Below, one piece after another: positions 28,401 through 45,881 of a stretch of 64,000 nucleotides of DNA. A model generated the notes under the pieces. It did not search any database, was not told where the DNA came from, and worked only from the letters and a program-made list of their open reading frames with translations. Position 1 is the first letter of the stretch. Each line of letters opens with the position of its first letter. Origin of the DNA: Protula sp. h YS-2021 (taxonomy: Eukaryota > Annelida > Polychaeta > Sabellida > Serpulidae); contig OX457033.1 in NCBI GenBank assembly GCA_949752745.1, forward strand, positions 18,639,907 to 18,703,906, written 5' to 3'. A program made the position numbers and the translations under genes.

Positions 28401-31400
28401 AGGCATTCTTTATATATTAACCGATGTCAAACAACATAGTGTGAAAAATTAAAAACTATTGACAAGCGCGGCAGAATTGCATATGACAAATGGGAAACGC
28501 CAGAAATAAAGGGATGTCAGGTACAAAATAACTATTCACGTGGTTGGGGATGTTAACTTAAAATTATATACCACCAATATTTCCATACACTCAGCATTGA
28601 TAATCAATTAACTCTTCATATTTACTACAATAAGAAAGACGTTCCACAACATGCGCTACCTCGGAACAGAACTGATTTTCCAGGTCTTGGTACTGCTGTG
28701 ACTGCTGATCGGATAATTCTTGTGTGAAAGCAACATTATCAATGGTTGCCGTTCCATACACTGCAGCGAGGTTCAGTCCTTGAAAAAAAAATGACCAACT
28801 ACATTTATTGTATTGCCGATCACCAAAGACAAGACATGTGTTAATTCTGTTTTGTTCGTAATGGTATATATTAAACGTCAATACTCGATCAAGCGACATG
28901 CGATTTTTTACGGTGACCAGTAAATAATATTCATCGTGTAAAAAGAGAGTGAAGTGTAAATACGTGAAGCTTAATACAATTTCAGTTAAACTGTCTTTGC
29001 TGAATCTAAACCCGGATGCTTACCCTGTATTGAAATAAATTCGGCCGGGGCATTGCGTATATCTCCATCATCATCCACAAACACACTCACGATGTTTACC
29101 GCAGCCTGAAATGCAACACATTTGATGTGCAACTAAAATACTCATAGTGGACTTCCAGTGTCATGTCAATATATATAACTATTTTTGGTACAGTCATAAT
29201 GCCCCAATTCTCAAAAGAATCGATTAAACTCAATAAGAATTGTTCGCGTTTCTCTATATTTAAACACTGATATTTATAATTCCGCAAAGTACAAGAATCT
29301 GGTAAGATATCTGATACTTTAAATAATAATTAGGTTTTTCTGATTTATTTAATACATATAAACATTTGAAAACTAACGATAATTTTAAGAAATTAAAAAA
29401 ATAATGAATTTAATGGGATTTGCAAACAATTTAAGTCTTTTTAGTTCAAAATGGTATATATTCAATGCAAAATATTTAAAATTTCATGCAGTTAGATAGG
29501 GTTTTATATATTTAATACATATAGTTATCAGTTAATGTCAACTGCATGCTTCATGGGTACATTTTGCTTGATATTTAAATAATTGACAGCTGCTTAATAC
29601 TGAAGACAAATAACATCTTACACGCATACATTGGTTTGTGAGCAATCAAAGTCAGTAAATCCCGACCAATCCGCAAAGCATACGTAGAACTAGCTAATTA
29701 ACTATAATAAGTGTTACTAATCGATTCACAAGTTTTACTTAAATCGCTCCAAAACTAATTTTTAATGTAGGAATAAGATTAAGCACATTAATTAGTACAT
29801 TAACTAAACTTTCTTTGTAAAATTCCGTAGAATCTTCCTTGGATTCTACGGAATCTTATCTACCTGAACCTGTTTCTTTTCCTTATATGCTGATAATTCA
29901 CTCTCAGTGAGGTTGTCAGGTCTCGGTTCAGTGACAGCGACATCAAAGGAAATCACAAGACTGTCGCTTCTGTGTCATGTGATGCGTTAGTCAATAATAT
30001 TGATTAGAAAACGAAACAAGCCATTGAAAAGATGTGCTTTTCATAAAATAGTGGTCCAGCTATACAAGATCTTTAATTCCAAGTTTAAAAACGTTAAATT
30101 TTAACAAAGAAAAATAATATTAATAATGATCAATACCATTCAATAGTAAAATGTATGTGTGTGTAGTTCCTATTTTATTGTATATAAGGGTGACTAGAAA
30201 AGAATGATCGCAGACAATTGGTGGTTACCATAGAAACAGACTTGTAGAACAATGACTGCAGTGCGACTGCATGTAGAAGAATTACAGATTGTAAGAGACA
30301 TACAAGACACTTTAGTAGATATTTCGTCGAATGGATACGTCATTGCGATGTTGCTTGGTAGGAGTTTCTTTCCATAAAAGCCACGTCAAACAAACGACCT
30401 CACCGAATCGACCAAAAAGCAACATCGTTCTTACGTCTTGGAAACAATAGAAAGACCGACGTCGCAATAGCAGCTTTAAAACAACGTGGTTTTGAGGCCA
30501 CCGTGGTTTTTGCGATATAAATGCCGCTGTGATTAGATCTCCGATCGCGGCTTTGGTTGAAATACTGCCTGGTTCACAAAAAAGCAATGTTCAGGTCTAT
30601 TCAACTTCAGATATTTCACTATTGAAACTTAACATTAGCGTAACAACAGAGTAACAGTAGTATGAAAACGCCGGTTCTGCCGCAGTCAATCATCGTGACG
30701 TCATCGATCACGTGATCAATTAAGTCAATTAAGCCAATTAAGTCAATGAAGTTCCGCCCGGTTTCACCTGTCAATCATTGTGACATGAGACGCCATAATG
30801 ACGTCATAATAGGCTATGACATGGTAACAAAGTGTTGAAAAAAACTATTTGCACAGATGGTTGTATGCATAATTGTAACATGCTGCCATTTTAACTTTGT
30901 AAAAAGTGAAAAATTGAGATAACTTTCGCTATACTTGGTCGATTTACATGAAAATTTCACTGTTTGATTCAGTTTTGTATTTAGTTTTGTTATAAAGTAG
31001 TCATAGGCTATTTGCGCAGCTGGCTGTATGCATATCTGTAACATGCCGCCATTTTAACTTTGTAAAAAGTGAAAAATTGGGATAACTTCCGTTATATTTG
31101 ACCGATTTGCCTGAAAATTTCACTGTTTGATTCAGTTTTATGTAAAGTTTTAACATTAAGTGGTCACAGGCTATTTACACCGGTGGCTGTATGCATAATG
31201 TGACATGCCGCCATTTTAATTTTGCAAAAAGTGAAAAGGTGGGATAACTTCCGCTATGGTTGACGGATTTGCATGAAAATTTCACTGTTTGATTCAATTT
31301 TATGTAAAGTTGTGTTATAAAGTAGTCACAGGCTATTTGCGCAGCTGGATGTGTGCATTTTTGTAACATGTCACCATTTTTACTTTGTGAAAAGTGAAAA

Positions 31401-34400
31401 ATTGAGATAACTTCCGTTATAGTTGACCGATTTGCCTGAAAATTTCACTGTTTGATTCAGTTTTATGTAAATTTTTAACATTAAGTGTTATAGGCTATTT
31501 ACGCCGGTGGCTGTATGCATAATGTGACATGCCGCCATTTTAACTTTGTAAAAAGTGAAAAAGTGAGATAACTTCCATTATAATTGACCGATTTGCCTGA
31601 AAATTTCACTGTTTGATTCAGTTTTATGTAAAGTTTTGACATTAAGTTGCTATAGGCTATTTACATCGGTGGCTGTATGCATAATGTGACATGCCGCCAG
31701 TTTAATTTTGTAAAAAGTGAAAAAGTGAGATAACTTCCGGTTCAGTCGCCGATTTGCCTGAAAATTTCACTGTTTGATTCAGTTTTATGTAAAGTTTTGA
31801 CATTAAGTGGCTATATGCTATTTACACCGGTGGCTGTATGCATGATGTGACATGCCGCCATTTTAACTTTGTAAAAAAAGTGAAAAATTGAGATTACTTT
31901 CGCTATAGTTGGTCGATTTGCATGAAACTTTCACTGTTTGATTCAGTTTTATATCTAATTTTGTTATAATGTAGTCATGGGCTCTTTGCAGAGCTGGCTG
32001 TTTGCATTTTTTCTTGTAACATGCCGCCATTTTAACTTTGTAAAAAGTGAAAAATTGGGATAACTTCCGTTATAGTTGACCGATTTACATGAAAATTTCA
32101 CCAATGGATTCAGTTTGATGTCTTAATTTACAGTAGTTTGCATAGGTGGGTGTTGGAATGGCGCGCGCCCCCCATTCAAACATGTGTTTGAATTATTTTT
32201 ACGTCAAACTATTGTTTAACAAGTTGTTTAGCAATTGTACAACAATTGTTCAACAACATGTTCAACAAGTTGAACATGTTCAACATGTTCAACTTGTTCA
32301 ACACCATGCTGTTTAACAAGTTGTTGTTCAACAAGTTGTAGTTCAAGCAATGAAAAAACAATACATATGTTGAATAGGTTTATTAATACACTTAAATACA
32401 CTTAAATACATACAGCTTAAATCTATAACGATATCACAATATTTGTTGATTAACAAAGTCTCTATTATAAAGTTTAGTCAAACATGTTCAACTTGTTGAA
32501 AAACATGTTGAAGAACATGTTGAACAACATGTTCAGCAAGTTCAACATGTTCAACATGTTGTTGAACATATTGCCCACGTCTAGGGTTGGGTTATGCCGC
32601 TTAGGGGAGTCTAACGTCATGACGTCTTTATGAAGTCATCATGACGTCATTATGACGTCATCACGTCATCACGTCATAATGACGTCATGATGACTTCATA
32701 AAGACGTCATGACGTTAGACTCCCCTAAGCGGCATAACCCAACCCTAGACGTAGGCAATATGTTCAACAACATGTTGAACATGTTGAACTTGTTGAACAT
32801 GTTGTTCAACATGTTCTTCAACATGTTGTTCAACAAGTTGAACATGTTCAACATGTTGTTCAACAAGTTGTATATAAGGCTATGTTTAAAGGCTTTTTCG
32901 TCATTTGAAAAGTGTATCTTGAACCGAAAGGATGTATAAATGCAACATTTGTTTGAAATCTTACAATTGGCCACAAAGTCTTAAAAGGCACTTAAAGAAT
33001 GCTCACACTTCAGAAGAAGAAGAATTGGAGATACATATGGAAAACCCTGTAAAACCACCTATCGCTGAAACTTTAGATGAGTCTTCTATGGAAAGTCAAA
33101 GCGTCAACATGACTGAAAAGAATGCACATGCTTGTACAGAATGTGGTGCGTTATACAACAGTCAAGTAGCTTTGTACAGACATATGGAACATTGTGGTGA
33201 GGGTGATGATGACAGCAGCTCTGAAAGTGAGCCAGAAACAGACTCTGAAAGTGAGTCAGAAACAGACTCTGTTTGGTATGATATGGTTCAAGAAGTCTAC
33301 GATGAATATGATATCAAATTTCAAGAAAAGGTTTCAGAATATGAAGAACAAGGGCTTGAAGATGCGCGTGACATAGTAAGTGATGACTTTAGACCCATTT
33401 ATAAGCGTCGACTTAAACAGCTGTTTATGAGACTGTTCAAATATGCCCAACGTCTAGAACAAAACGAACATTATCAAACCATTTTAGAAGACTTTAATTA
33501 CTTTGTTGATGAAAAACATTACGAGTATTCAAAGGCACTAAAGGCGGCTATAAGAAGAAACGATGCATTCTTTGAAGAGCTTCTCGATGAGGAGGAGGAA
33601 GATGAAAGCAGTGACGAAGAAAGTGATATGGATGACAGTGAAGCAGATGAAGAAAAATAGACTTATTTGACTAAACTTTATAATAGAGACTTTGTAAATC
33701 AACAAATATTGTAATATTGTTATAGATTTAAGCTGTATGTATTTAAGTGTATTTAAGTGTATTAATAAACCTATTCAACATATGTCTTGTTTTTTCTTTG
33801 CTTGAACTACAACTTGTTGAACAACAACTTGTTAAACAGCATGGTGTTGAACAAGTTGAACATGTTCAACTTGTTGAACATGTTGTTGAACATGTTGAAC
33901 ATGTTGAACATGTTCAACAACAGCTTGTTGAACAATTGTTGTACAATTGCTAAACAACTTGTTGAACAATAGTTTGACGTAAAAATAATTCAAACACATG
34001 TTTGAATGGGGGGCACGCGCCATTCCAACACCCACCTATGCAAACTACTGTAAATTAAGACATCAAACTGAATCCAATGGTGAAATTTTCATGTAAATCG
34101 GTCAACTATTACGGAAGTTATCCCATTTTTTCACTTTTTACAAAGTTAAAATGGCGGCATGTTACAAAAAAAATGCACACAGCCAGCTCCGCAAATAGCT
34201 CATGACTACATTATAACAAAATTAGATATAAAACTGAATCAAACAGTGAAAGTTTCATGCAAAGCGACCAACTATAGCGAAAGTAATCTCAATTTTTCAC
34301 TTTTTTACACAATTAAAATGGCGGCATGTCACATTATGCATACAGCCACCGGTGTAAATAGCCCATGACTACTTTATGGTAAAACTTTATACAAACATGA

Positions 34401-37400
34401 ATCAAACGGTGAAATTTTTATGCAAATCGGTCAACTATAACGGAAGTTATCCCAATTTTTCACTTTTTACAAAGTTAAAATGGCGGCATGTCACATTATG
34501 CATACAGCCACCGGTGTAAATAGCCTATAACACTTAATATTAAAAATTTACATAAAACTGAATCAAACAGTGAAATTTTCAGGCAAATCGGTCAACTATA
34601 ACGGAAGTTATCTCAATTTTTCACTTTTCACAAAGTTAAAATGGTGACATGTTACAAAAATGCATACATCCAGCTGCGCAAATAGCCTGTGACTACTTTA
34701 TTACACAACTTTCCATAAAATTGAATCAAACAGTGAAATTTTCATGCAAATCCGTCAACCATAGCGGAAGTTATCCCACTTTTTCACTTTTTACAAAATT
34801 AAAATGGCGGCATGTCACATTATGCATACAGCCACCGGTGTAAATAGCCTGTGACCACTTAATGTTAAAACTTTACATAAAACTGAATCAAACAGTGAAA
34901 TTTTCAGGCAAATCGGTCAAATATAACGGAAGTTATCCCAATTTTTCACTTTTTACAAAGTTAAAATGGCGGCATGTTACAAAAATGCATACAGCCAGCT
35001 GATTTTGTCAAATAAGATAAAATATTTAAGAGACAAAGTAGAAAACCCATCCCCAAAATTATCCTTAAAGGTTGATTCAGGTGCGCCTCATGCGCTGCAG
35101 TTTCTGCGCTTGGCTTTTTCCATCATATATCCACAGCGAAATTATGTTACTGTAAAATTTGCGGAGATTAAACGTAACGCGCAACGCAAAGGTCTGAGCC
35201 CGGCGTTTCCTTAGTGTATAAATGCGGAACATTTCAAGACGATAGGCTGCAAATAGTCTTGGGAATGGTACGCGCCGATAAAGCGCGGTAAGAGAGACCT
35301 GGGCGCATGGAGTGCATTGCTACACAGAGGTTTTTTCAGAAATCTATAGAAGAAAATACAAACACCAATTCAGTTACACCGGTGCGTAGCGGAAACGGCC
35401 ATAAAAATGCTATCTACCCAAACTGATGAGGACCAAATAATAGTCCGATTTTAACCACTCCGAATAATGTCAACTAAATTCATTCATTTACATTTTCATG
35501 AAGTATAACATTGAAACTGTAAAGAACCATTGCTTGTACTTAGGGTAAAAGTGTTCCCGTAATGGGAAATGCGCGTTGAGTAGTAGGAAAACGACAGTTC
35601 TGGAACACCCCCCTCTCCCCCCCAGGGGTCGACTGTCAGAGGTGAGGACCACCCCCCCTAGGGGTCGACTGTCAGAGGTGAGGACCCCCCCTAGGGGTCG
35701 ACTGTCAGAGGTGAGGACCCCCCTAGGGGTCGACTGTCAGCGATGAGGACCCCCCAAGGGGTTGACTGTCACCGGTAAGAAAATTTGAGGACCCCCCCCC
35801 CCCTAGGGCTAAGAAAATTTTGCGATTTCAGCATAGTTATATGTTTCAGACGATTCTGAACAACTTCGCTTTTGAAGACCCCCCCCCCCCCAGGACTGAG
35901 AAAATTTTGTGATTTCAGCATAGTTATCCGTTTCAGACGATTCTAAGCAACTTTGGTTTTGAGGACCCCCCCCCCCCAAAGGCAAAGAAAATTTTGTGAT
36001 TTCAGCATGGTTATATGTTTCAGACGATTCTGAACAACTTCGGTTTGAGGACCCCCCCCCCCTCCCAGGACTGAGAAAATTTTGTGATTTCAGCATAGTT
36101 ATCCGTTTCAGACGATTGTAAGCCACTTTGGTTTTCATGACCCCCCCCCTCCTTACTTAAAATTGCGATAACTTTCGTTATAGTTGACCGATTTGTATGA
36201 AAATTTCACCATTTGATTCAGTGTTATGTAAAGTTTTGTTATAAAATAGTCATGGGCTACTTGTGCAGCTGGCCGTATACATATTTATAGCATGTAACCA
36301 TTTTAACTTAAAACTGGGATAACTTTTGTTATACTTGACCGATTTCAATGAAAATTTCACCATTTGATTCAGGTTTATGTAAACTTTTGTTATAAAGTGA
36401 TCATGGGCTAGTTGCGCAGGTGGCTGTATGCACATTTATAGCATGTAACCATTTTAACTTAAAACTGGGATAACTTTTGTTATACTTGACCGATTTCAAT
36501 GAAAATTTCACCATTTGATTCAGGTTTATGTAAACTTTTGTTATAAAGTGATCATGGGCTAGTTGCGCAGGTGGCTGTATGCATATTTATAGCATGTAGC
36601 CATTTTAACTTAAAACTGGGATAACTTTTGTTATACTTGACCGATTTACATGAAAATTTCACCATTTTGTTCAGTTATTTCTTGTGTTATTTCGCGGATG
36701 AATACCATTTTGGCTTGACCGCTAGATGTCTCTGCTGTGCAGCTCTACAACTGTATGTGAGATATCTGCTGAGTCAGCAATTTTAACGAGTTTGAACAAG
36801 TTACACACCATATTTTGATTGCATCGAAGTAGTACAAAAGCAAACCTTTTTGTTCTGCTTGGAAAAACTTGGACAAACTTTTAGTTTTTGGTTTTTATGA
36901 CTCTATGACATTATGTGACAACATGCGACTGTGACATTATGTAATCTATGACATTATGTGACTCTCTGTGACTTTTTTTTAACATAATAGCCATATTTCT
37001 ATGTCTATTTTCACTATTATTATTATGCTAATATTTAATTAGTCATATTTCAATGGTTTTATTACAATAACCACGCGCACACACAGCATAGGAATAAGCA
37101 CATGAAAGGTCTCAGAGTGCGGGGAAACCGATCAATAAATTTCAGAGTGCACTCGTTCAGAGCGTGGGAACGATCAATAATTTGAGAAGGAATGGGATTT
37201 TCCCTACGTTAAGTCCAATGTTATGTTTTATGTTATGGTAGTTGGAAAATGGTGCAAACTTTAGCAAATGTAGTTTTTGACAACATATGATATATAAAAT
37301 AAGTTTTAGCATTTTACCATGGTACTTATTTAAATATTCTAAAGTTATAGTGGTGCAGAAATGGTGGTTCTAGACCAACTTTAACAAATTTAGTTTTTCA

Positions 37401-40400
37401 CGTTTCAAACAATTCTACCACTTGGTTGGTGGGTTGATTGTTGGAAAATGGGAAGTAAAAATGTGGATAGTTATGTAGGAAAACTGCGCCCATTCAAACA
37501 TGTGTTCGAATGGCAAGCCCATTTAAAAGACGTGTTCGAATGGCAAGCCCATTCAAAACACGTGTTCGAATAATTTTTGGAAGATATTAGGTCGTGGTAT
37601 TGTTCAACAAATTGTTCAACATGTTCAACATGTTGTTGTTTAACATGTTCAACATGTTCAACATGTTGTTGTTCAACATGTTCAACATGTTGTTGTTCAA
37701 CATGTTCAACATGTTCAACATGTTGTTGTTCAACATGTTCAACATGTTCAACATGTTGTTGTTCAACATGTTCAACATGTTGTTGTTCAACAAGTTGTTC
37801 AACATGTTCAACATGTTGTTGTTCAACATGTTCAACATGTTGTTGTTCAACAAGTTGTTGTATATAAAGCTATGTTTAAAGACTTTCTCATCATCTGAAT
37901 AGTGTAAGTTGAACCGAAAGGATGTATCAATGCAACATTTGTTCAAAATCTTAAAACTGGCCACAAAGTCTTAAAAGACACTTAAAGGTTGCTCACACGT
38001 CAGAAGTGGATGAAGAATCGGATATGGAGAACCCTGTAAAACTACCTTTCACGGAAACTTTCGATGAGTCTTCTATGGAATGTGGCGCATTATACAACAG
38101 CGAATAAGCTTTGCTCAAACATATGGAGCAGTGTGGTGAGGATGCTGATGACAGGAGTTCTGAAAGTGAGTCAGAAACAGACTCTGAAAGTGAGTCAGAA
38201 AAAGACTCTGAAAGTGAGTCAGAAATAGACTCTGTCTGGTATGATATGGTTCAAGAAGTCTACGATGCCTATGATGACAAATTTCGAGAAAAGGTTTCAG
38301 AATATGAAGAACAAGGACTTGAAGATCCGCGTGAAATAGCAAGCTATGACCTTCGACCCATTTATAAACATGGACTTAAACAACTGTTTATGAGACTATT
38401 CAAATATACCCAGCGTCTAGAAGAAAGCCAACATTATCAAAAGATTTTAAAGGACTTTAATTACTTTTTGGATGAAAAACATTACAAGTATTCAAAGGCA
38501 CTAAAGGCGGCTATAAGGAAAAACAATGCATTCTTTGAAGAGCTACTAGATAAGGAAGAGGAGTATGACAGCAGTGATGAAGAAAGTGACATGGAGAGTG
38601 AGCAGAGTGAAACAGATGAAGAAAAATAGACTTATTTGACTAAACTTTATGATAAAGACTTTATAAATGTTGTAATATTTTATTCGCTTAAGCGTTGTGT
38701 ATTAATATATGTCTTGCTTTGCAACATATAAAGCCGTAAGGTTCCTGACGTGGTTTTAATTGACCCGTAAACCATATATCATATATTAGGTATTATAGTT
38801 AATTTTGTATTATTATGTATTATATTCAAGTATTGTATGAGAAAAATAAAAAGTTGAAAAGCATCATATGTGTTTTTATTGAATATCGCAAATATGTACA
38901 ATTATGATACAAACAAAACTATTTCAAATACATATTATGTTAATACATGTGCAGATTCACAAAAACTTCACATTAACATACATCATATTAATTTCATAGC
39001 CTACATATGAAGACAATTTTATTTGAACTACATATCAAATGTATATATCCATATGAGTCAAAGCTAATATTTCAAGTTCTTGTCCAGTCTTCTACACTGA
39101 GGGTGATGAAATCATAGCATTCACTAAGCTCGTCATGCAGTTAAAATGTATACAGTCATCTCGCTGTCTACTCAACAATCTTCTGACAGTCATTGCATTT
39201 ATACAAATCCATTTGCTGAAGCATGAGATCCACTGACGTCATTTGCTTCTTCAGCATGTGCCAATCGTTCAATGACAACAAAATTCCCTTCTTGGTAGGA
39301 TGTAACCTCCCAGATGTATGATCCGTAATATATTCACGAATGTTAACCATCACTTTCTGTTGATATTTCCCCAATTTAATATATATTTCTCCATTAACAG
39401 GTATCATAACCGGTAAATCGTCTACACCCATCTTCTTCATGGTGGTAGCAGCTTTACACTCTGGTTCTCGCTTCATTTTAGGCTCTGTCTTAATTTTTCG
39501 CTTTTTACACGGCGGCGTCATAGCTGGTAACTCATCTCTTTTTCTCTTTCTAAGATGTGGTCGCTTTTGACGCTGATGCTGCTGACATGACTTCGCCTTA
39601 GACTTTACCATGGGCATTGCGTTAGACTTTGCTGTAGGTATTGTCTCAGGCTTTACCACAATATTTTCTGCAGGCATTGTCTCAGACTTTTCTACAGGCA
39701 TTGTCATAGATGGTAGTTGTTGCTCGCTCACTCCAGACATGTTCACACTTCAGTATCTTGATATAGAATGTGTGTTAGGTCTGAGGGCGGCTGCCTTTTA
39801 TACTTTATAGTGAGTTGACTTAATATGTTTAGAAATAACTTTTCCACGTTTGCCTTTGTGGCCAGTTGTAAGATTTTGAACAAATGTTGCATTGATACAT
39901 CCTTTCGGTTCAACCTACACTATTCAAATGATGAGAAAGTCTTTAAACATAGCTTTATATACAACAACTTGTGGAACAACAACATGTTGAACATGTTGAA
40001 CAACAACATGTTGAACATGTTGAACAACTTGTTGAACAACAACATGCTGAACAACAACATGTTGAACATGTTGAACAACAACATGTTGAACATGTTGAAC
40101 AACAACATGTTGAACATGTTGAACAACAACATGTTGAACATGTTGAACAACAACATGTTGAACATGTTGAACAATTTGTTGAACAATACCACGACCTAAT
40201 ATCTTCCAAAAATTATTCGAACACGTGTTTTGAATGGGCTTGCCATTCGAACACGTCTTTTAAATGGGCTTGCCATTCGAACACATGTTTGAATGGGCGC
40301 AGTTTTCCTACATAACTATCCACATTTTCACTTCCCATTTTCCAACAATCAACCCACCAACCAAGTGGTAGAATTGTTTGAAACGTGAAAAACTAAATTT

Positions 40401-43400
40401 GTTAAAGTTGGTCTAGAACCACCATTTCTGCACCACTATAACTTTAGAATATTTGAATAAGTACCATGGTAAAATGCTAAAACTTATTTTATATATCATA
40501 TGTTGTCAAAAACTACATTTGCNNNNNNNNNNNNNNNNNNNNNNNNNNNNNNNNNNNNNNNNNNNNNNNNNNNNNNNNNNNNNNNNNNNNNNNNNNNNNN
40601 NNNNNNNNNNNNNNNNNNNNNNNNNNNNNNNNNNNNNNNNNNNNNNNNNNNNNNNNNNNNNNNNNNNNNNNNNNNNNNNNNNNNNNNNNNNNNNNNNNNN
40701 NNNNNNNNNNNNNNNNNNNNNNAACATGTTGAACATGTTGAACAATTTGTTGAACAATACCACGACCTAATATCTTCCAAAAATTATTCGAACACGTGTT
40801 TTGAATGGGCTTGCCATTCGAACACGTCTTTTAAATGGGCTTGCCATTCGAACACATGTTTGAATGGGCGCAGTTTTCCTACATAACTATCCACATTTTC
40901 ACTTCCCATTTTCCAACAATCAACCCACCAACCAAGTGGTAGAATTGTTTGAAACGTGAAAAACTAAATTTGTTAAAGTTGGTCTAGAACCACCATTTCT
41001 GCACCACTATAACTTTAGAATATTTGAATAAGTACCATGGTAAAATGCTAAAACTTATTTTATATATCATATGTTGTCAAAAACTACATTTGCTAAAGTT
41101 TGCACCATTTTCCAACTACCATAACATAAAACATAACATTGGACTTAACGTAGGGAAAATCCCATTCCTTCTCAAATTATTGATCGTTCCCACGCTCTGA
41201 ACGAGTGCACTCTGAAATTTATTGATCGGTTTCCCCGCACTCTGAGACCTTTCATGTACTTATTCCTATGCTGTGTGTGCGCGTGGTTATTGTAATAAAA
41301 CCATTGAAATATGACTAATTAAATATTAGCATAATAATAATAGTGAAAATAGACATAGAAATATGGCTATTATGTTAAAAAAAGTCACAGAGAGTCACAT
41401 AATGTCATAGATTACATAATGTCACAGTCGCATGTTGTCACATAATGTCATAGAGTCATAAAAACCAAAAACTAAAAGTTTGTCCAAGTTTTTCCAAGCA
41501 GAACAAAAAGGTTTGCTTTTGTACTACTTCGATGCAATCAAAATATGGTGTGTAACTTGTTCAAACTCGTTAAAATTGCTGACTCAGCAGATATCTCACA
41601 TACAGTTGTAGAGCTGCACAGCAGAGACATCTAGCGGTCAAGCCAAAATGGTATTCATCCGCGAAATAACACAAGAAATAACTGAACAAAATGGTGAAAT
41701 TTTCATGTAAATCGGTCAAGTATAACAAAAGTTATCCCAGTTTTAAGTTAAAATGGCTACATGCTATAAATATGCATACAGCCACCTGCGCAACTAGCCC
41801 ATGATCACTTTATAACAAAAGTTTACATAAACCTGAATCAAATGGTGAAATTTTCATTGAAATCGGTCAAGTATAACAAAAGTTATCCCAGTTTTAAGTT
41901 TAAAATGGTAACATGCTATAAATGTGCATACAGCCACCTGCGCAACTAGCCCATGATCACTTTATAACAAAAGTTTACATAAACCTGAATCAAATGGTGA
42001 AATTTTCATTGAAATCGGTCAATTATAACAAAAGTTATCCCAGTTTTAAGTTAAAATGGTTACATGCTATAAATATGTATACGGCCAGCTGCACAAGTAG
42101 CCCATGACTATTTTATAACAAAACTTTACATAACACTGAATCAAATGGTGAAATTTTCATACAAATCGGTCAACTATAACGAAAGTTATCGCAATTTTAA
42201 GTAAGGAGGGGGGGGGGGTCATGAAAACCAAAGTTGCTTACAATCGTCTGAAACGGATAACTATGCTGAAATCACAAAATTTTCTCAGTCCTGGGAGGGG
42301 GGGGGGGGTCCTCAAAACCGCAGTTGTTCAGAATCGTCTGAAACATATAACCATGCTGAAATCACAAAATTTTCTTTGCCTTGGGGGGGGGGGGGTCCTC
42401 AAAACCAAAGTTGCTTAGAATCGTCTGAAACGGATAACTATGCTGAAATCACAAAATTTTCTCAGTCCTGGGGGGGGGGGGTCTTCAAAAGCGAAGTTGT
42501 TCAGAATCGTCTGAAACATATAACTATGCTGAAATCGCAGTCGACCCCTAGGGGGGGTCCTCACCCCTGACAGTCGACCCCTAGGGGGGTCCTCACCTCT
42601 GACAGTCGACCCCTAGGGGGATGAGGGGGGTGTTCCAGAACTGTCGTTTTCCTACTACTGCGTTGGGTTTTTCGGCAATATCTGGTGATTTACCTTTTAT
42701 AATATCTGAATGTTATGGCTTGGCTTATATGGGAGTTGGGTTGACGAGAAAATATATAGACCCCTACTTCCGGTTTTTTTTTGTCTTCTTTGTTCTTCAA
42801 GTTTCTATATTGAAAAGTTTTCCAAACCACGCTATATTTCTTCATAAATATCAGTAGTGTTCAAAGTTTATTCAAGCATTTCAGTTATCATTTCAGTGCC
42901 TTAAACTTTTTATTTATATCTAAATATAACATCTTTGTCCCAGGATAACAGGATATTATGACAGTAAATATCTGAATGATCGGTCACAACACCTCTTCGT
43001 GCTATGTGACTGGTGTTACGAAATGGCATAGTTCACGCACTCCCAGGGGGAGCATGCAATCTTTCATATTTTGCATTCACAATGGAAATAATAATATGTT
43101 GTTTACTTTGGATTATTATTTCTTTGGTCGGTTGCAAATAACAAATGTTTACTTAACACCACAAACAAACTGCATGTCACAGACGACACTATTTTGTTAC
43201 ATGACTTGGGTAAATGCTGTAATCTGCTTGGTTGATTCCAAAGTTAACAATTCTTAAATGTTGACCAGAACGTAAAAATAGTGTTGCAGCTATTTGTGAT
43301 CAAAATGCCAAATAATGCCTGCAAACAAAGCATCTATTGATCTGTTCTCAGTCAAAATGACAACATTGTTGACCTGTTGCGATAATGTTGACCTTAAAGT

Positions 43401-45881
43401 CAATGTTTTCTCAACAATGCTTTCATGTTGACTCAAAATAAACAAATATTTCCTGAAATGTTGACGTAAAAACTTTTATAGAAGTTGATTCAAAGCTGTT
43501 GACAGTTTGGAACTGGGCCGAAAGAGTGCAACCGTCCTTGTTTCACCTATGTACCACCTCTTTTCCCCATATGAGATATTTTGAAAAGCCCTTACCTAAA
43601 ACGAGTCACTGAACACGACACGTCATCGAGGGTTCCCATATAGTATGACGTCATTATCTGAATAAAACGATAACAAGATAACATACATCATAGCTAGTTT
43701 CAGATTTTTGCTTCAAAAAATATTTATTCAAAAAGACGTATGCGACCTTTTTAAAGTATTTCAATCTGATCATGTAAAATGGAGAAATTAAAAAATTATA
43801 AATTTAACAAAACCAAGGGATTTTTTCCAAGAATACCTACCTCGTTACAGAACTTGGTTTGGTATTGTTTGAACTGCGTGGATTTGGAATTGGAAAGGGC
43901 TGAGCGGTATGGCCATGCTGTGTCGTCATCAATTGTGACGTCACCAGTGACGGTGTATGTTAAAGTATCTTTGCCGTCCTTGTCTGAAGATATGATTAAA
44001 TAAATATAAAGAAAAAAGATCGAGACAGAACTACAATACTGGATGATTTAAAATGGGTGTGCAAAATATTTTTTCATTAGTAGGGGAAAGTCCTGGTTCT
44101 AGTCAATATAGGAAGAATCACTGACGCCAGGTTTGCCGTAGCGAGTGTATCGTATGGCGGTATATTTGTACAAAAAAAAATCAAAATGTACATGTCGTAT
44201 ATTTAATTTTGTCTCGCGTTCATTTGAATGGCCTCGCGGCAATATTCTCAGCCGCACAACATTTACATTCCATATGTTATTTGACTATTTATTTCGCGCT
44301 CTTTAATTTCGCCATAATTTTATCCCGCACCGTACTTCAAGATCTTGTGTTTTAAAGAACGTTTGTCTGACCATGCGTTTTATCACGTAATTTAATTTCT
44401 TAATTTTGGAACGCAAAAAGTTAATTATAGGGCGCGATAAATTGCATTCACTCTATCATTTATTTTTTTAATAATAAAAACCACGTGCAGAAATTAATGG
44501 TGACTTGGATAACATAAAAAGTGGTTCGCGAAACAATTAAATATTTTCTCATCTATTAATTGTACATAAATACCATTGGGATCAAAATAAATGTTGGAGC
44601 GCGAACGGCATGAAACTTTTGTAGAAATATACCGCCATAGTATCGTCACACCGGAGAAATAGGCTTAACCATCAGAGTTAAGCGGGGCGTTTTGCCCTTA
44701 CTCGATCTTGTATATTACCCAGTGCCATCACTTGCCATTTTCTACGTTTATTTTATTTTATTTTATTTATTTATTTATTTATTTTTCTTAAACCAAGGCA
44801 GAAAAATCCGCGACCTTTCGCTTGTATGGAGTATCGTTTTCACGTTTTATTGCCAAAATAAAAAATCCTTATTTATTTAACTCTTATAGTTTCACCAAAC
44901 AGCTATGCCACCAAACAACTCCCATGGCGCCACCTACGGCAGTATATTTGTCCAAAAATCAAAACCTACATGGTATAAGTTTTATTTTTTTTCTCGCCAT
45001 CATTATAATAGCCTGACAATTTCTAATGCCGCGCAACCTACATTTTTTACACATGTTAGCTACAATTTAATCGCGCTCTTTTACTTCACGGTGTTTTTTT
45101 CGAGAAATATAATTTCACATAAAATCTGCCTTTAAAGGCCGTCTGTGAACATGCGCTTTGTCACGAGTTTGATTGTTGGATATCTCATCTTTACGAATAG
45201 ATTTCTTAATTTTGGAAGGCGAAAAAAAAATTAATTACGAGGTACATGGAATTAATACTGTCAATTTAAACTCTGTGATTTATTTTTAGAATAATTAAAA
45301 CCACGTGCAGAAAGTAGTATTGATTGGATGATAGTATAATAAATTACAGAATTTGCATTGACATGCATTAATTTTACCCCCCCCCCCCCCCCGGAGTTAA
45401 TTTTTTCACCTTCCAAAGTGTGTAAAACCCTTCCAAAGTGTGTAAAACACACATGTTGCGAGACAATAGAAATTGTCGTGAGGTCATTTTAATGCTCGCC
45501 AGAAAAAAATTACCGCAGGTAGGTTTTGATTTTTTTTTGGACAAATATACTGGCATAAAACAACGGCGAGGTCCCATGAAAAGCTCTGCACCCTCCACAA
45601 AATAGTTCCGTATATGGCGACCCGCCTCCTCCACCTCCCCATCTACCACAACTTGTAAAACAGCTGGCCCCGCTCCCCTAAATAGACCCCACACACGCCC
45701 ATTCCAAGATCTCCAGGACTCACGCCACCTCACACCTTTGTCGTCGCCATCGTCCCGGAAGACGAAGTACAAGACGAGGACTGCGGCGGCGGCGGCGGCG
45801 AGAAGGAGCACCACGGTGACAACAATGCAGCACTTTCGGTTCTTCCCGCGTCGCTTCGCGCAACTGCTCCTTTCCACGTCT
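7326..45881 (-). CDS. Type II transmembrane mosaic serine protease (enteropeptidase/TMPRSS-like), 36 exons found
   Basis: Single minus-strand gene assembled from exons that each match a known extracellular module. Splice phases agree at every junction except around the second SEA domain. Order from the N side: transmembrane exon, SEA1, SEA2, EGF, four calcium-binding EGFs, EGF plus LDLa, four LDLa, linker, three CUB, Ser/Thr linker, four LDLa, SRCR, S1 protease domain. About 4.86 kb of coding sequence was found, roughly 1,600 residues. Family knowledge: such proteases sit in the plasma membrane with the catalytic domain outside, and are activated by cleavage before an I/V-V-x-G motif. Enteropeptidase has the related order TM-SEA-LDLa-CUB-MAM-CUB-LDLa-SRCR-protease; here there is no MAM, and EGF and LDLa modules are expanded. 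The exon with the start Met lies upstream of 45881 and was not identified. Two transposons sit in the intron 29970-43595. It could be regarded as a novel TTSP rather than a true enteropeptidase ortholog. Confidence 0.88.
7653..7834 (-). CDS. Exon 35: protease domain with S1 Asp
   Basis: Encodes the C-terminal barrel up to [15 protein letters not shown]. The Asp of DACF sits six residues before the catalytic Ser, as Asp189 in trypsin. 182 bp, phases 1-0; donor GTAAGT. Confidence 0.9.
8008..8285 (-). CDS. Exon 34: protease domain with catalytic Asp
   Basis: Encodes [13 protein letters not shown], then ANDIALIKL with catalytic Asp102, PVCLP and CYVTGWG. An extra stretch rich in Ala ([13 protein letters not shown]) sits before the Asp motif. 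278 bp, phases 2-1. Confidence 0.92.
8613..8695 (-). CDS. Exon 33: protease domain with catalytic His
   Basis: Encodes [20 protein letters not shown] and C; His in LTAAHC is catalytic His57 (chymotrypsin numbering). 83 bp, phases 0-2; donor GTGCGT. Confidence 0.9.
9500..9902 (-). repeat. Tandem ~76-bp copies of the exon 32 end and its splice donor
   Basis: Five decaying copies of the segment coding for [19 protein letters not shown] and its donor lie directly downstream in the intron (starts near 9811, 9735, 9663, 9584, 9500 on the plus strand). Copies at 9811-9890 and 9735-9810 keep a good donor (GTAAGT on the minus strand). Unit lengths of 72-80 bp are not multiples of three, so use of a later donor would shift the frame. 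Confidence 0.8.
9903..10087 (-). CDS. Exon 32: SRCR end, activation site and start of protease domain
   Basis: Encodes the last SRCR Cys block, then IVCGRP (the Cys that usually links to the protease domain), then the activation site [16 protein letters not shown]. Cleavage after Lys would free the new N-terminus VVNG, as in chymotrypsin-like enzymes. Phases 1-0; donor GAT/GTAAGT. The end of this exon and its donor are repeated several times in the next intron. Confidence 0.88.
10395..10513 (-). CDS. Exon 31: SRCR domain, middle
   Basis: Joining exon 30 gives the SRCR signature C-RQLGY at the splice. Continues [13 protein letters not shown]. Acceptor TTTCAG, donor CAAG/GTAGTT, phases 2-1. 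Confidence 0.82.
11014..11248 (-). CDS. Exon 30: LDLa repeat 9 and start of SRCR domain
   Basis: LDLa repeat [17 protein letters not shown] with [10 protein letters not shown], followed in the same exon by the start of an SRCR domain ([20 protein letters not shown]). Ends in phase 2 at TGCAG/GTATCA. Confidence 0.87.
12660..12770 (-). CDS. Exon 29: LDLa repeat 8
   Basis: Encodes [18 protein letters not shown] and [13 protein letters not shown] is replaced by QDE, so calcium binding may be weaker. 111 bp, phases 1-1. Confidence 0.87.
12998..13111 (-). CDS. Exon 28: LDLa repeat 7
   Basis: Encodes [18 protein letters not shown] and [10 protein letters not shown]. 114 bp, phases 1-1. Confidence 0.88.
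13621..13731 (-). CDS. Exon 27: LDLa repeat 6
   Basis: Encodes [17 protein letters not shown] and [10 protein letters not shown]. 111 bp, phases 1-1. Confidence 0.88.
13872..14012. repeat. Short hairpin repeat in an intron
   Basis: GTTTCCGAAAAGAAG near 13877 pairs with CTTCTTTTCGGAAAC near 14005. Between them are further inverted copies of AGAAGCCC/GGGCTTCT. Likely a tiny inverted-repeat element. Confidence 0.6.
14037..14108 (-). CDS. Exon 26: Ser/Thr-rich linker
   Basis: Encodes [20 protein letters not shown] plus four residues. 72 bp, phases 1-1. A likely O-glycosylated spacer between CUB3 and the second LDLa block. Confidence 0.65.
14287..14443 (-). CDS. Exon 25: CUB domain 3, second part
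   Basis: Encodes [13 protein letters not shown] and [20 protein letters not shown]. 157 bp, phases 0-1. Confidence 0.86.
14962..15146 (-). CDS. Exon 24: CUB domain 3, first part
   Basis: Encodes [20 protein letters not shown] and [17 protein letters not shown], ending CCDYIE. 185 bp, phases 1-0; donor GTAATG. Confidence 0.88.
15695..15772 (-). CDS. Exon 23: CUB domain 2, end
   Basis: Encodes [20 protein letters not shown] and TYSQYDG. 78 bp, phases 1-1. Confidence 0.82.
15951..16053 (-). CDS. Exon 22: CUB domain 2, middle
   Basis: Encodes [20 protein letters not shown] and a following stretch with one Cys. 103 bp, phases 0-1. CUB2 is split into three exons, unlike CUB1 and CUB3. Confidence 0.82.
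16441..16622 (-). CDS. Exon 21: CUB domain 2, first part
   Basis: Encodes [20 protein letters not shown] and CGDSVA. 182 bp, phases 1-0. Confidence 0.88.
17369..17531 (-). CDS. Exon 20: CUB domain 1, second part
   Basis: Encodes [15 protein letters not shown] and [17 protein letters not shown], closing with FRASYTAF as CUB domains do. 163 bp, phases 0-1. Confidence 0.87.
17743..17779. repeat. Perfect short palindrome
   Basis: ATTATCTGTTTGCAA, a TTTTAA centre, and TTGCAAACAGATAAT form a perfect 15-bp stem in an intron of the protease gene. Confidence 0.75.
18834..19033 (-). CDS. Exon 19: CUB domain 1, first part
   Basis: Encodes [20 protein letters not shown] (the CUB SPxYPxxY signature), then ELDFISF and CVDFVA. 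200 bp, phases 1-0; donor GCA/GTAAGT. Confidence 0.88.
19592..19639 (-). CDS. Exon 18: 16-residue linker
   Basis: Encodes [16 protein letters not shown] between the LDLa block and the first CUB domain. 48 bp, phases 1-1, acceptor TCAAAAG and donor CAG/GTAATA. Its sequence recalls an SEA strand, but no other SEA part is near. Confidence 0.55.
20399..20539 (-). CDS. Exon 17: LDLa repeat 5
   Basis: Encodes [18 protein letters not shown] with a longer first loop than the others, then [13 protein letters not shown]. 141 bp, phases 1-1. Confidence 0.83.
20795..21165 (+). repeat. Two tandem copies of a ~180-bp intronic repeat
   Basis: A unit containing AAAAGAAAATTGAAATCGGT, a TATGGCGCGTACAAA-like stretch and ATAATGAGGTCA occurs twice head-to-tail. 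Its wording (AAATCGGT near a GCG triplet) resembles the tandem units of elements A and B, but the match is too short to call homology. Confidence 0.7.
21480..21593 (-). CDS. Exon 16: LDLa repeat 4
   Basis: Encodes [17 protein letters not shown] and [10 protein letters not shown]. 114 bp, phases 1-1; donor GTTAGT as in exon 14. Confidence 0.85.
22176..22304 (-). CDS. Exon 15: LDLa repeat 3
   Basis: Encodes [21 protein letters not shown] and LGATDEVAC. The usual SDE is TDE. 129 bp, phases 1-1. Confidence 0.85.
22662..22778 (-). CDS. Exon 14: LDLa repeat 2
   Basis: Encodes [17 protein letters not shown] and CIDGSDE. 117 bp, phases 1-1, with a weaker donor GTTAGT. Confidence 0.85.
23168..23356 (-). 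CDS. Exon 13: EGF-like domain 6 fused to LDLa repeat 1
   Basis: Starts [17 protein letters not shown], then runs within the same exon into an LDLa repeat ending [10 protein letters not shown]. The acidic SDE triplet binds calcium in LDLa repeats. 189 bp, phases 1-1. Confidence 0.87.
23538..23654 (-). CDS. Exon 12: calcium-binding EGF domain 5
   Basis: Begins [16 protein letters not shown], ends QEGC; most similar to exon 10. 117 bp, phases 1-1. Confidence 0.88.
23894..24016 (-). CDS. Exon 11: calcium-binding EGF domain 4
   Basis: Begins [16 protein letters not shown] and ends DGISC. Very similar to exon 9 (same length, shared GFLLN and DGISCTG), so exons 9-10 and 11-12 look like a duplicated pair. 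Confidence 0.88.
24279..24395 (-). CDS. Exon 10: calcium-binding EGF domain 3
   Basis: Begins [16 protein letters not shown], with GSFNCHC and a final EEGC. 117 bp, phases 1-1; donor GTGAGT. Confidence 0.88.
24685..24807 (-). CDS. Exon 9: calcium-binding EGF domain 2
   Basis: Begins [12 protein letters not shown] and ends DGISC, with the calcium-binding DxDEC start and the aromatic/glycine pattern GSFTC. 123 bp, phases 1-1. Confidence 0.88.
25110..25215 (-). pseudogene. Possible decayed EGF exon
   Basis: Read on the minus strand this gives [16 protein letters not shown] and FEPRCP followed by a stop, recalling the second half of an EGF domain (CxNxPGSFxCxC). It lies between EGF exons 8 and 9 in the row of EGF exons. 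The stop and lack of a first half suggest a dead module. Weak evidence. Confidence 0.3.
25496..25615 (-). CDS. Exon 8: EGF-like domain 1
   Basis: Encodes [11 protein letters not shown] through [16 protein letters not shown] with six Cys spaced as in EGF domains. It lacks the DxDE calcium-binding start seen in the following exons. 120 bp, phases 1-1. Confidence 0.8.
26644..26713 (-). CDS. Exon 7 (tentative): SEA domain 2, C-terminal half
   Basis: Encodes [18 protein letters not shown], which resembles the GSxxVxF strand of SEA domains. The donor GGAG/GTACTA is phase 1 and fits the following EGF exon. The acceptor is uncertain because exon 6 has no clean donor. This is the weakest exon of the model. 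Confidence 0.45.
28594..28778 (-). CDS. Exon 6: SEA domain 2, first part
   Basis: Encodes [30 protein letters not shown] and on to ELIDYQC, a clear SEA N-terminal half. Acceptor TTTTCAAG is phase 1 and joins exon 5. The frame reaches a TGA at 28593-28591 without an obvious GT donor in phase, so the 3' edge given here is the open-frame limit, not a proven splice site. Confidence 0.65.
29024..29105 (-). CDS. Exon 5: link between the SEA domains
   Basis: Encodes [16 protein letters not shown] and onward to FISIQ. Acceptor TTTCAG, donor CAGG/GTAAGC; phases 0 to 1, continuous with exons 4 and 6. Confidence 0.7.
29864..29969 (-). CDS. Exon 4: SEA domain 1, C-terminal half
   Basis: Encodes [15 protein letters not shown], the SEA beta-strand block that normally reads GSVVVxF. 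The usual Gly before Ser is replaced by Asp, so the self-cleavage seen in some SEA domains may not occur. Phase 2 acceptor (ACACAG) fits exon 3; donor GTTCAG/GTAGAT. Confidence 0.75.
30842..32110. repeat. Left arm of element A: eight tandem ~160-bp units
   Basis: Each unit has CATGCCGCCATTTTAAC, GATAACTTCCGTTATAG, GACCGATTT and TTTCACTGTTTGATTC. Unit spacing measured at the CCATTTT motif is 158-170 bp. Units differ from each other by scattered substitutions. Confidence 0.9.
32481..32848. repeat. Near-perfect 368-bp palindrome upstream of the element A gene
   Basis: Arms 32481-32658 and 32671-32848 (178 bp each) match with only a few mismatches around a 12-base asymmetric loop (CATCACGTCATC). 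The outer part is AACATGTT-type repeats; the inner part has three perfect TGACGTCA sites at 32642, 32653 and 32680. It should extrude readily as a cruciform. Confidence 0.9.
32871..32878 (+). promoter_or_regulatory. TATA box of the element A gene
   Basis: TATATAAG lies 54 bp before the ATG at 32932. The same TATA-to-ATG block, including GAACCGAAAGGATGTAT, is kept in element B at 37861-37925 and, inverted, at 39961-39895. Confidence 0.75.
32932..33660 (+). CDS. Zinc-finger/acidic protein of element A (242 aa)
   Basis: Intact single-exon open frame from an ATG with its own TATA box and poly(A) signal. Residues 1-25 form a C2H2 finger (C4, C7, H20, H25) and 68-88 form a second one (C68, C71, H84, then H87 or C88). 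Residues 90-112 are an acidic Ser/Glu/Asp tract, 113-217 a helical-looking charged block, and 218-242 a very acidic tail ([13 protein letters not shown]). The acidic tracts look like casein kinase 2 targets or activation domains. Family not identified. The helical block is about 80% identical to the broken copy in element B, which suggests past selection on the protein. Probable role, by inference: DNA binding at the element's own repeats. Confidence 0.8.
   Translation: MYKCNICLKSYNWPQSLKRHLKNAHTSEEEELEIHMENPVKPPIAETLDESSMESQSVNMTEKNAHACTECGALYNSQVALYRHMEHCGEGDDDSSSESEPETDSESESETDSVWYDMVQEVYDEYDIKFQEKVSEYEEQGLEDARDIVSDDFRPIYKRRLKQLFMRLFKYAQRLEQNEHYQTILEDFNYFVDEKHYEYSKALKAAIRRNDAFFEELLDEEEEDESSDEESDMDDSEADEEK
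33764..33769 (+). terminator. Poly(A) signal of the element A gene
   Basis: AATAAA 104 bp after the stop codon. The flank is repeated, inverted, in the left arm (32360-32482), so the left arm carries a copy of the gene's 3' end. Confidence 0.6.
34065..35000. repeat. Right arm of element A: six tandem ~160-bp units, inverted
   Basis: Same unit as the left arm in reverse orientation, with AAAATGGCGGCATGT motifs near 34150, 34316, 34480, 34640, 34802 and 34965. Two fewer units than the left arm. Confidence 0.9.
35573..35578 (+). repeat. Target-site duplication of element B, left copy
   Basis: GCGTTG directly before AGTAGTAGG. The identical six bases follow the right terminus at 42660-42665. 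Confidence 0.85.
35600..36150. repeat. Left subterminal GTCGACTGTCAG and C-run repeats of element B
   Basis: Four to five copies of a unit with AGGGGTCGACTGTCAG, then ~90-bp units each with a run of about 9-12 C and AAAATTTTGTGATTTCAGCA. The inverted counterpart with G runs is at 42205-42620. Confidence 0.85.
36150..36680. repeat. Left ~150-bp tandem units of element B
   Basis: Four related units with AACTTTTGTTATACTTGACCG and GAAAATTTCACCATTTGATTC. They are clearly related to the ~160-bp units of element A but lack its GCCGCC motif. Confidence 0.88.
37605..37860. repeat. AACATGTT array upstream of the element B zinc-finger promoter
   Basis: About 19 copies of the palindromic 8-mer AACATGTT in groups of two or three (9-bp period), separated by GTTGTTC. 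The array ends directly at the TATA box at 37861. The inverted copy lies at 39962-40192 and continues across the gap. The Asn/Met/Leu or Cys/Ser/Thr-rich open frames through it are artefacts of the 9-bp period. Confidence 0.9.
37861..37868 (+). promoter_or_regulatory. TATA box, left arm of element B
   Basis: TATATAAA 54 bp before the ATG at 37922, at the same spacing as in element A. Confidence 0.7.
37922..38629 (+). pseudogene. Broken zinc-finger/acidic gene of element B
   Basis: Homologous to the intact gene 32932-33660. The first finger is cut by an in-frame TAA at 37952-37954. Most of the segment leading into and starting the second finger is deleted, and another stop follows at about 38104. 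After it, an open frame remains from an ATG at 38123 to the TAG at 38627, covering the acidic tract, helical block and acidic tail (about 168 residues). That remnant could still be made as a protein without fingers. The damage is described only; the function of the remnant is unknown. Confidence 0.8.
38845..38850 (+). terminator. Poly(A) signal, plus-strand gene of element B
   Basis: AATAAA about 215 bp after the stop of the zinc-finger/acidic remnant, facing the opposing signal 25 bp away. Confidence 0.55.
38875..38880 (-). terminator. Poly(A) signal, PC4-like gene
   Basis: AATAAA on the minus strand, about 290 bp past the PC4-like stop codon. The two convergent transcripts would end within a few tens of bases of each other. 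Confidence 0.55.
39168..39740 (-). CDS. PC4/SUB1-like single-strand-DNA-binding protein of element B (190 aa)
   Basis: Intact open frame. I start it at the ATG at 39740; two further in-frame codons upstream lack an ATG. Residues 1-55 have short repeats of the type MPxxKSxxMP. Basic clusters at 59-68 ([10 protein letters not shown]) and 78-84 look like nuclear signals. Residues 117-168 resemble the PC4 (SUB1) core: [39 protein letters not shown] and [11 protein letters not shown], where human PC4 has VDIREYW...PGRKGISLNxxxWxxL. A CxxC (YKCNDC) follows near the C-terminus. PC4 proteins bind single-stranded and melted DNA and help transcription and repair. In a palindromic element this could serve replication or transposition intermediates (inference). 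A TATAAAAG lies 55 bp upstream. Confidence 0.75.
   Translation of the reverse strand: MSGVSEQQLPSMTMPVEKSETMPAENIVVKPETIPTAKSNAMPMVKSKAKSCQQHQRQKRPHLRKRKRDELPAMTPPCKKRKIKTEPKMKREPECKAATTMKKMGVDDLPVMIPVNGEIYIKLGKYQQKVMVNIREYITDHTSGRLHPTKKGILLSLNDWHMLKKQMTSVDLMLQQMDLYKCNDCQKIVE
39795..39802 (-). promoter_or_regulatory. TATA box of the PC4-like gene
   Basis: TATAAAAG on the minus strand, 55 bp before the ATG, the same spacing as in the zinc-finger genes. It lies inside the unique core, not in the repeated arm. Confidence 0.65.
39854..39899 (-). pseudogene. Right-arm fragment of the zinc-finger gene start
   Basis: The right arm carries the TATA box (39961-39953), the ATG and the first 15 codons of the same gene in inverted orientation. 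Where the left copy has the stop codon TAA, this copy keeps TAC for Tyr. Homology ends at 39854 and the frame then closes after a few unrelated codons. This fragment marks the inner limit of the arm. Confidence 0.7.
40152..40522. repeat. 371-bp segment duplicated across the gap, copy 1
   Basis: Identical by eye to 40723-41093. The left arm has the corresponding sequence only once, so one copy is probably an assembly error. Confidence 0.8.
40523..40722. other. Assembly gap, 200 N
   Basis: Exactly 200 undetermined bases inside the right arm of element B. The round number points to a scaffold placeholder. Confidence 0.99.
40723..41093. repeat. 371-bp segment duplicated across the gap, copy 2
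   Basis: Repeats 40152-40522 in the same orientation and continues smoothly into the rest of the right arm at 41094. Confidence 0.8.
41690..42200. repeat. Right ~150-bp tandem units of element B
   Basis: Inverted counterpart of 36150-36680, with about the same number of units. Confidence 0.88.
42205..42620. repeat. Right subterminal G-run and GTCGACCCC repeats of element B
   Basis: Inverted counterpart of 35600-36150. Four runs of 9-13 G are spaced by about 80 bp. Confidence 0.85.
42660..42665 (+). repeat. Target-site duplication of element B, right copy
   Basis: GCGTTG directly after CCTACTACT, identical to 35573-35578. Confidence 0.85.
43596..43657 (-). CDS. Exon 3: SEA domain 1, middle
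   Basis: Small 62-bp exon encoding [20 protein letters not shown], matching the SEA pattern C-x-V-x-x-F. Flanked by TTATTCAG and GTAAGG; phases 0 to 2. It directly precedes the 13.6-kb intron that carries mobile elements A and B. Confidence 0.75.
43841..43983 (-). CDS. Exon 2: SEA domain 1, first part
   Basis: Encodes an SEA-type start ([10 protein letters not shown]) and the typical middle ([14 protein letters not shown]). Acceptor ATCTTCAG, donor GAG/GTAGGT, phases 1 to 0. Confidence 0.8.
44153..44639. mobile_element. MITE, copy 1 (487 bp) with 6-bp duplication
   Basis: Starts TATGGCGGTATATTTGTA and ends AAATATACCGCCATA as an inverted repeat. GTATCG flanks it on both sides (44147-44152 and 44640-44645). 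No coding capacity. It lies in the intron between the TM exon and the first SEA exon. Confidence 0.75.
44935..45556. mobile_element. MITE, copy 2 (about 620 bp), diverged
   Basis: Starts TACGGCAGTATATTTGTCC and ends GGACAAATATACTGGCATA. The inside matches copy 1 in order (TTCTTAATTTTGGAA, ACCACGTGCAGAAA). A C14 run lies at about 45377. No clear target duplication. Confidence 0.7.
45736..45881 (-). CDS. Exon 1 found: cytoplasmic basic stretch and transmembrane helix
   Basis: Encodes a basic stretch (AKRRGKNRK), then CC and a hydrophobic run of about 24 residues ([20 protein letters not shown]), then an acidic stalk. Basic residues before the helix fit a type II (N-in) orientation. The acceptor TTAACAG and donor AAAG/GTGTGA give phases 2 and 1, and phase 1 matches the next exon. 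No in-frame ATG exists upstream before a stop, so the start lies in another exon. Assignment to the protease rests on order and phase. Confidence 0.65.

Follow-up and report, generated by a model that had tools for sequence, protein, structure and literature searches.

Polinton-type ends on a palindromic, gene-carrying element of an annelid genome, probably mobilised by Polinton machinery

What kind of mobile element combines a perfect 6-bp target-site duplication, long palindromic arms and genes of its own, and by what machinery might it move? The question is raised by an element, here called E1, in a 64,000-nucleotide stretch (the window) of contig OX457033.1 (positions 18,639,907 to 18,703,906; assembly GCA_949752745.1) of the serpulid annelid Protula sp. 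h YS-2021. A first-pass annotation, made from the letters of the window, had proposed either a new class of non-autonomous, Polinton-dependent element with accessory genes or an unrecognised transposon superfamily. Judging from sequence comparisons, we consider that, with a probability of roughly 0.85, E1 is non-autonomous, carries genes of its own and is mobilised by Polinton (Maverick/adintovirus-like) machinery that the host genome supplies. Its features, in coordinates of the window, are the following.

35573..35578: left target-site duplication, GCGTTG (read directly; boundary count)
35579..37968, + strand: left arm of E1, with an (AGT)2 terminus and 32-bp and 87-bp arrays with C/G runs; within it a 151-bp array (36155-36674), a AACATGTTG-type satellite (37612-37856) and a TATA box (37861), followed by the start of the zinc-finger gene
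37922..38629, + strand: C2H2 zinc-finger/acidic gene, with two in-frame stops in E1 and otherwise one frame throughout
39168..39746, - strand: PC4 (PF02229) gene, with an open frame whose first ATG is at 39740 and with TATA-like sites upstream (39809/39802)
39854..42659, - strand: right arm of E1, repeating the left arm in inverted orientation
40523..40722: assembly gap (N), bordered on each side by the same 371-bp sequence (exact duplication)
42660..42665: right target-site duplication, GCGTTG (read directly; boundary count)

E1 thus spans 35579-42659, and its inverted ends read AGTAGTAGG/CCTACTACT; both termini begin AGTAGTAGGAAAACGACAGTTCTGGAACAC and are identical over their first 37 bases. 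Since GCGTTG differs from its reverse complement, the arms cannot simply continue into the flanking pair. Identical outer 6-mers occur at 2 of the 1,668 boundaries in the window at which a 15-bp perfect inverted match stops, with about 0.4 expected by chance at 4^-6; these are E1 and an unrelated element at 44153-44639 that resembles a miniature inverted-repeat transposable element (MITE). This count supersedes an earlier one that required perfect 9-bp ends and returned 8,975 pairs in the window, mostly 6-mers or ends lying within repeats and arms. The matching termini and the GCGTTG on both sides reported in the first-pass annotation therefore stand.

The arms, 2.2-2.4 kb in length, turn most of the approximately 7 kb of E1 into a palindrome. 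Aligned to each other (35579-37634 versus 42659-40723), they show 16 substitutions over 2,061 columns, 129 of which are gap columns (118 of these from a single gap in the 87-bp array), and the pairing extends inward as far as 37968 and 39854. Both contain tandem arrays (32, 87 and 151 bp, and the AACATGTTG-type satellite), the 151-bp array being present at both ends of the element. The annotated arm length of about 2.3 kb was right, as was the statement that the arms fill most of the element; the coordinates of the right arm, by contrast, are probably inflated. The 371 bp repeated exactly on both sides of its 200 N indicate that two overlapping contigs were probably left unmerged, so that the right arm is probably about 571 bp shorter in truth than its coordinates, and the matching GCGTTG 6-mers argue that both contig ends are of one element.

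The two genes sit between the arms and partly within them, with TATA-like sites upstream of both. The PC4 product is recognised by Pfam (E 1.8e-11) and by solved PC4/p15 chains (E 1.5e-6 to 3.5e-6), and paralogues of the zinc-finger gene with open frames exist in the same genome. A Pfam scan of 29 of the 37 E1 open reading frames (ORFs) of at least 55 codons found no gene for a polymerase, RVE integrase, packaging ATPase, adenovirus-like protease or capsid protein, in agreement with the annotated lack of polymerase, integrase and capsid genes; PC4 apart, none of the scanned ORFs, the 27 further ones among them included, gave a match above a curated cut-off. An Ets1_N_flank match that recurs below the cut-off (E 0.0015-0.0026) in frames of the 151-bp array was taken as chance.

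The same assembly, 863,473,835 bases in all, was searched with the first 188 bases of E1 plus the left duplication, yielding 66 matches (418 candidates, 40 scored), from which eight further facing pairs 2-15 kb apart were picked by eye and 201 bp were read at each end. In all eight pairs, the terminal 21 bp show at most one mismatch each and a perfect 6-bp duplication flanks the copy, every 6-mer being different; the differing ends or missing duplications that would have spoken against the annotated element were not seen among them. The lengths of these copies are 2,048, 5,992, 10,725, 13,224, 14,938, 14,944, 15,105 and 15,211 bp. The 5,992-bp copy (L066) is a second complete element of the E1 type, with arms 94% alike and the target-site duplication CTGCTT; its zinc-finger frame is open, and its PC4 gene, 94% identical to that of E1, contains two stops. 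Neither of the two E1-type copies read has both genes intact, the broken one being the zinc finger in E1 and PC4 in L066. E1-type PC4 matches were also located within two longer copies, the 10.7-kb one, where there are two of opposite orientation, and the 13.2-kb one. E1 represents a recurring type and is no isolated accident.

Autonomous Polintons are about 15-20 kb long, a range that includes four of the eight end pairs (14.9-15.2 kb), the genes having been read in one of these four. In this 15,105-bp copy, three 4-kb pieces (L045-L047) with 16 ORFs were searched separately. Above the curated cut-offs, they encode an integrase (rve, E 1.5e-10) with a chromodomain (Chromo, 2.6e-7), an ATPase (Adeno_IVa2, 5.9e-7; Pox_A32, 2e-5), an adenovirus-type endoprotease (Peptidase_C5, 1.4e-4) and a PC4 homologue (2.3e-8). 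An ORF of 841 amino acids (aa; its length within the piece) matches Endonuclease_7 below the cut-off (0.0011) and contains the strings SDTDS and NNSVFG, which we take to resemble polymerase-B motifs; two other ORFs, of 463 and 269 aa, have no Pfam matches. Such a combination of genes is indicative of a Polinton or adintovirus, the full-length integrase-encoding element with the same termini for which the first-pass annotation had suggested looking.

Because E1 and the elements of about 15 kb have their ends and 6-bp duplications in common, and one of the latter encodes an integrase, an ATPase and a protease, E1 is best regarded as a Polinton-type non-autonomous element; we do not call it a Polinton, since the DNA features of Polintons are present and their enzymes were not found. 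Thus, the first of the two annotated options is supported, with dependence on a helper being inferred, and a new superfamily is not needed. A passage of PMC8097293 gives (AGT)2//(ACT)2 end motifs and a 6-bp target-site duplication for vertebrate Mavericks, consistent with the 6-bp duplications and AG ends that the annotation had ascribed to Polintons. E1 resembles Polintons/Mavericks and adintoviruses in both respects, and the 15.1-kb copy with E1 ends further resembles Polintons in its integrase with chromodomain, packaging ATPase and adenovirus-like protease, whereas E1 differs from them in being 7 kb long and mostly palindrome, with those enzyme genes not found.

In Repbase-style names, an N marks a non-autonomous family. 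By this convention, non-autonomous Repbase Polintons such as Polinton-1N1_DR presumably have Polinton ends without the enzymes, as E1 does. Polinton-1N1_DR is mentioned in a passage of PMC9341505, so that non-autonomous Polintons are already known by name and the annotated 'new class' goes slightly far. What sets E1 and its relatives apart from Polinton-1N1_DR, which is known here by name only, are the conserved genes and the palindromic arms. No gene-bearing palindromic relative of Polintons was found in the open literature, the part searched (subscription papers and Repbase lay outside its scope); as far as that literature goes, palindromes spanning the whole length of an element are new, as are cargo genes that are conserved and so abundant. 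Zinc-finger regulators (Ziftr) occur in some adintoviruses, according to a passage of PMC11071296; likened by description only, they would share with the E1 gene the character of a zinc-finger transcriptional regulator in an adintovirus-like setting.

How abundant are such elements, and how did the arms arise? The best 150 of 6,379 first-look candidates for the zinc-finger protein and the best 150 of 6,762 for PC4 were scored. All 150 scored matches are, besides the protein itself, 93-97% identical for the zinc finger and 89-97% for PC4, and 141 and 133 of them, respectively, lack stops, fractions that are biased upward because the best-scoring copies alone were scored, with stops counted by eye; each gene has at least 150 copies. 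Twenty of the 150 zinc-finger loci were sampled (4 at first and 16 more picked by eye along the list). Long inverted arms are present in all 20, and in 14 of them (L041-L044, L048-L051, L053-L055, L057, L061 and L062), 4.1-8.1 kb long, a perfect 6-bp duplication lies outside ends starting AGTAG. Seven of the 20 (L041, L042, L044, L050, L051, L055 and L057) are whole-length palindromes within such a duplication: a single inverted alignment (97-99.8%) covers the entire element, with two zinc-finger copies facing outward from the centre (in L057, one copy is in two pieces). Each end of the palindrome L044 (L044:2089-2200 and 7631-7719) has a nested pair of AGTAGTATGAAAA end motifs, spaced by 89 bp at one end and 88 bp at the other, which look as if the ends were duplicated.

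The 14,944-bp copy offers a hint to the origin of the arms. At one of its ends, positions 295-794 of E1 match at 93%, past the common terminus; within 2 kb of the other end, the matches are confined to positions 1-294 of E1 and the 87-bp array. The inverted repeat of this copy itself is short, with a best stretch of 192 aligned columns. Thus, the 151-bp array, found at both ends of E1 versus one end of this relative, suggests a snap-back duplication of one Polinton end, and by this comparison both arms of E1 look like copies of that end. The symmetric (palindromic) adenovirus recombinants (SYREC) are likewise inverted duplications in which the same viral end forms both termini; unlike these, E1-type elements are integrated, in many copies, in an animal genome. 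Alternatively, the palindromes could have arisen not during replication of the element but through gene conversion or unequal exchange between inverted chromosomal copies. The strong likeness of the arms, with their 16 substitutions, is also expected from conversion, and many zinc-finger copies occur as close inverted pairs. However, whole-length palindromes within single 6-bp duplications, as at 7 of the 20 sampled loci, suggest insertion as ready-made palindromes, and we consider this alternative unlikely.

The next possibility is that E1 is merely an internally deleted or degenerate Polinton, its genes being leftovers without a role. This would fit the presence of a PC4 homologue in the 15.1-kb copy as well and the broken zinc-finger gene of E1 itself. 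Yet the E1 PC4 is just 36% identical to that homologue, so that E1 is no recent deletion product of that copy, and most of the scored zinc-finger and PC4 copies, even if biased to intact ones, are free of stops. Moreover, the zinc-finger gene shows, in these comparisons, purifying selection between families: the ratio of nonsynonymous to synonymous differences per site (pN/pS) is 0.38 (bootstrap 0.26-0.59) between L041 and L066 and 0.39 (0.27-0.61) between L066 and E2, a relative of E1 in the same window, and the corresponding substitution ratio (dN/dS) for E1 versus E2 is 0.43 (0.24-0.83). We therefore regard the leftover scenario as rather improbable.

Several observations nevertheless weigh against the interpretation of E1 as a gene-carrying element mobilised by Polintons. 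In the candidate helper, the 841-aa ORF has no polymerase-B Pfam match, and its PDB matches do not go below E 0.63; neither a capsid protein nor a zinc-finger homologue turned up in the pieces read from the 15.1-kb copy; the 36% identity of the two PC4 proteins is low for this interpretation, too. The snap-back argument draws on one relative, the 14,944-bp copy, compared at its ends. No target-site duplication was obtained at 6 of the 20 zinc-finger loci (L052, L056, L058, L059, L060 and L063), of which L063 is a whole palindrome with differing flanks. Finally, four comparisons of closer pairs have wide intervals and are uninformative or nearly so, PC4 included: pN/pS is 0.7 (0.2-2.69) for PC4 and 0.4 (0.09-1.64) for the zinc finger between E1 and L066, and, for the zinc finger, 0.59 (0.21-1.95) between E2 and L041 and 0.16 (0-0.93) between L041 and L044.

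The two remaining explanations have next to no probability. Foldback elements and Galileo have long, internally repetitive inverted arms, as E1 does; coding copies of Galileo belong to the P-element superfamily, with ends other than those of E1. An origin from a foldback transposon of another superfamily, suggested by such arms, or from an IS3EU/GingerRoot-type one, for which 6-bp duplications are also usual (in a passage of PMC10045372), is contradicted by the ends of E1, (AGT)2 and AG..CT as opposed to the TA..TA that the same passage gives for IS3EU, and by the integrase, ATPase and protease of the end-sharing copy, and was rejected. So was an assembly artefact, to which the gap in the right arm and the duplication of contig ends beside it might point, given the palindromes with target-site duplications at other sites (for example, L041, L042, L044 and L050) and the second E1-type copy, L066.

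Upstream of E1, the window contains E2, as follows.

30656..35001, + strand: E2, a relative of E1 with the left end AGTAGTATGAAAACG and inverted arms, truncated (right terminus missing)
32932..33660, + strand: zinc-finger gene of E2, open frame, 242 aa, two C2H2 fingers

The E1-like end at 30656 has 3 mismatches in 21 bases (3 matches in the window versus 0 expected in shuffles). E2, 4.35 kb in length, aligns best with E1 at 78.7% over 1,015 columns and is nearest to elements that carry the zinc finger only, with best alignments of 89-91% to L041, L044, L049 and L055. A near-perfect palindrome of 368 bp (32481-32848; 97%) with TGACGTCA-like repeats lies directly upstream of the promoter of the E2 zinc-finger gene.

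Searches beyond this genome returned few relatives. A protein search gave no matches for PC4 and 4 for the zinc-finger protein, for which a profile search gave 5, two of them new; PHROGs yielded a single weak match over the first finger, to a family without assigned function, and a structure model of the zinc-finger protein (pLDDT, a per-residue confidence score, 65.9) had no viral fold match at E<=0.001. IMG/VR contained no relative of the PC4 protein, the E2 zinc-finger protein, alignment A1, P0003 or P0006, and nothing in Rfam reached gathering scores. The terminal pattern of E1 had 0 matches in prokaryote contigs and no phage match; its 16 matches in viral contigs, none of which runs into GTTCTG (best 22/30 bases), were taken as chance.

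Elsewhere in the window, an ORF at 62073-62750 (- strand) encodes what we take to be a fatty-acid elongase, and there are fragments in other places that look, to us, CUB/SRCR/trypsin-like, as befits an animal genome. Long tandem-repeat tracts at 1-3400, in which more than one frame is open (HTQDHPHKRPA-like; several frames in all), are perhaps a minisatellite. The MITE-like element at 44153-44639 is 487 bp long, with inverted ends TATGGCGGTATATTT and the 6-bp duplication GTATCG; its TA..TA ends and 6 bp fit IS3EU/GingerRoot as described in part of PMC10045372.

If E1 is indeed mobilised by Polintons, its propagation could be envisaged as follows. The polymerase of a helper Polinton would copy E1 from its ends through protein-primed strand displacement, as in adenovirus, and the helper integrase would insert the linear DNA, generating the 6-bp duplication. 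Snap-back (copy-back) synthesis would give the two termini copies of the same Polinton end and so form the palindromic arms, which panhandle replication would then keep alike. We infer for the zinc-finger protein a role in binding the subterminal repeats and/or in regulating transcription, and for PC4, with its single-stranded-DNA-binding fold, one in coating the displaced strands or, alternatively, as a coactivator; the cargo proteins might thus give E1 an advantage over plain deletion derivatives. Going further, and with somewhat less than even confidence, we suggest that the genome harbours Polinton satellites in large numbers: DNAs that are palindromic over their whole length, formed by snap-back, live as parasites of Polinton replication and integration, carry selected zinc-finger (and PC4) genes of their own and perhaps far outnumber the helper. 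They would be the equivalent, in an animal, of satellite viruses or of defective-interfering genomes turned heritable.

To our knowledge, Polinton replication has been deduced from the genes of these elements rather than observed. Whole-length palindromes with one end at both termini inside a 6-bp target-site duplication are the expected products of strand-displacement copying combined with template switching, and such palindromes would preserve a heritable record of that mechanism. So large a population of gene-bearing satellites would also mean that Polintons are parasitised in animals, and would provide natural examples in which to study what the satellites gain from PC4 and zinc-finger proteins.

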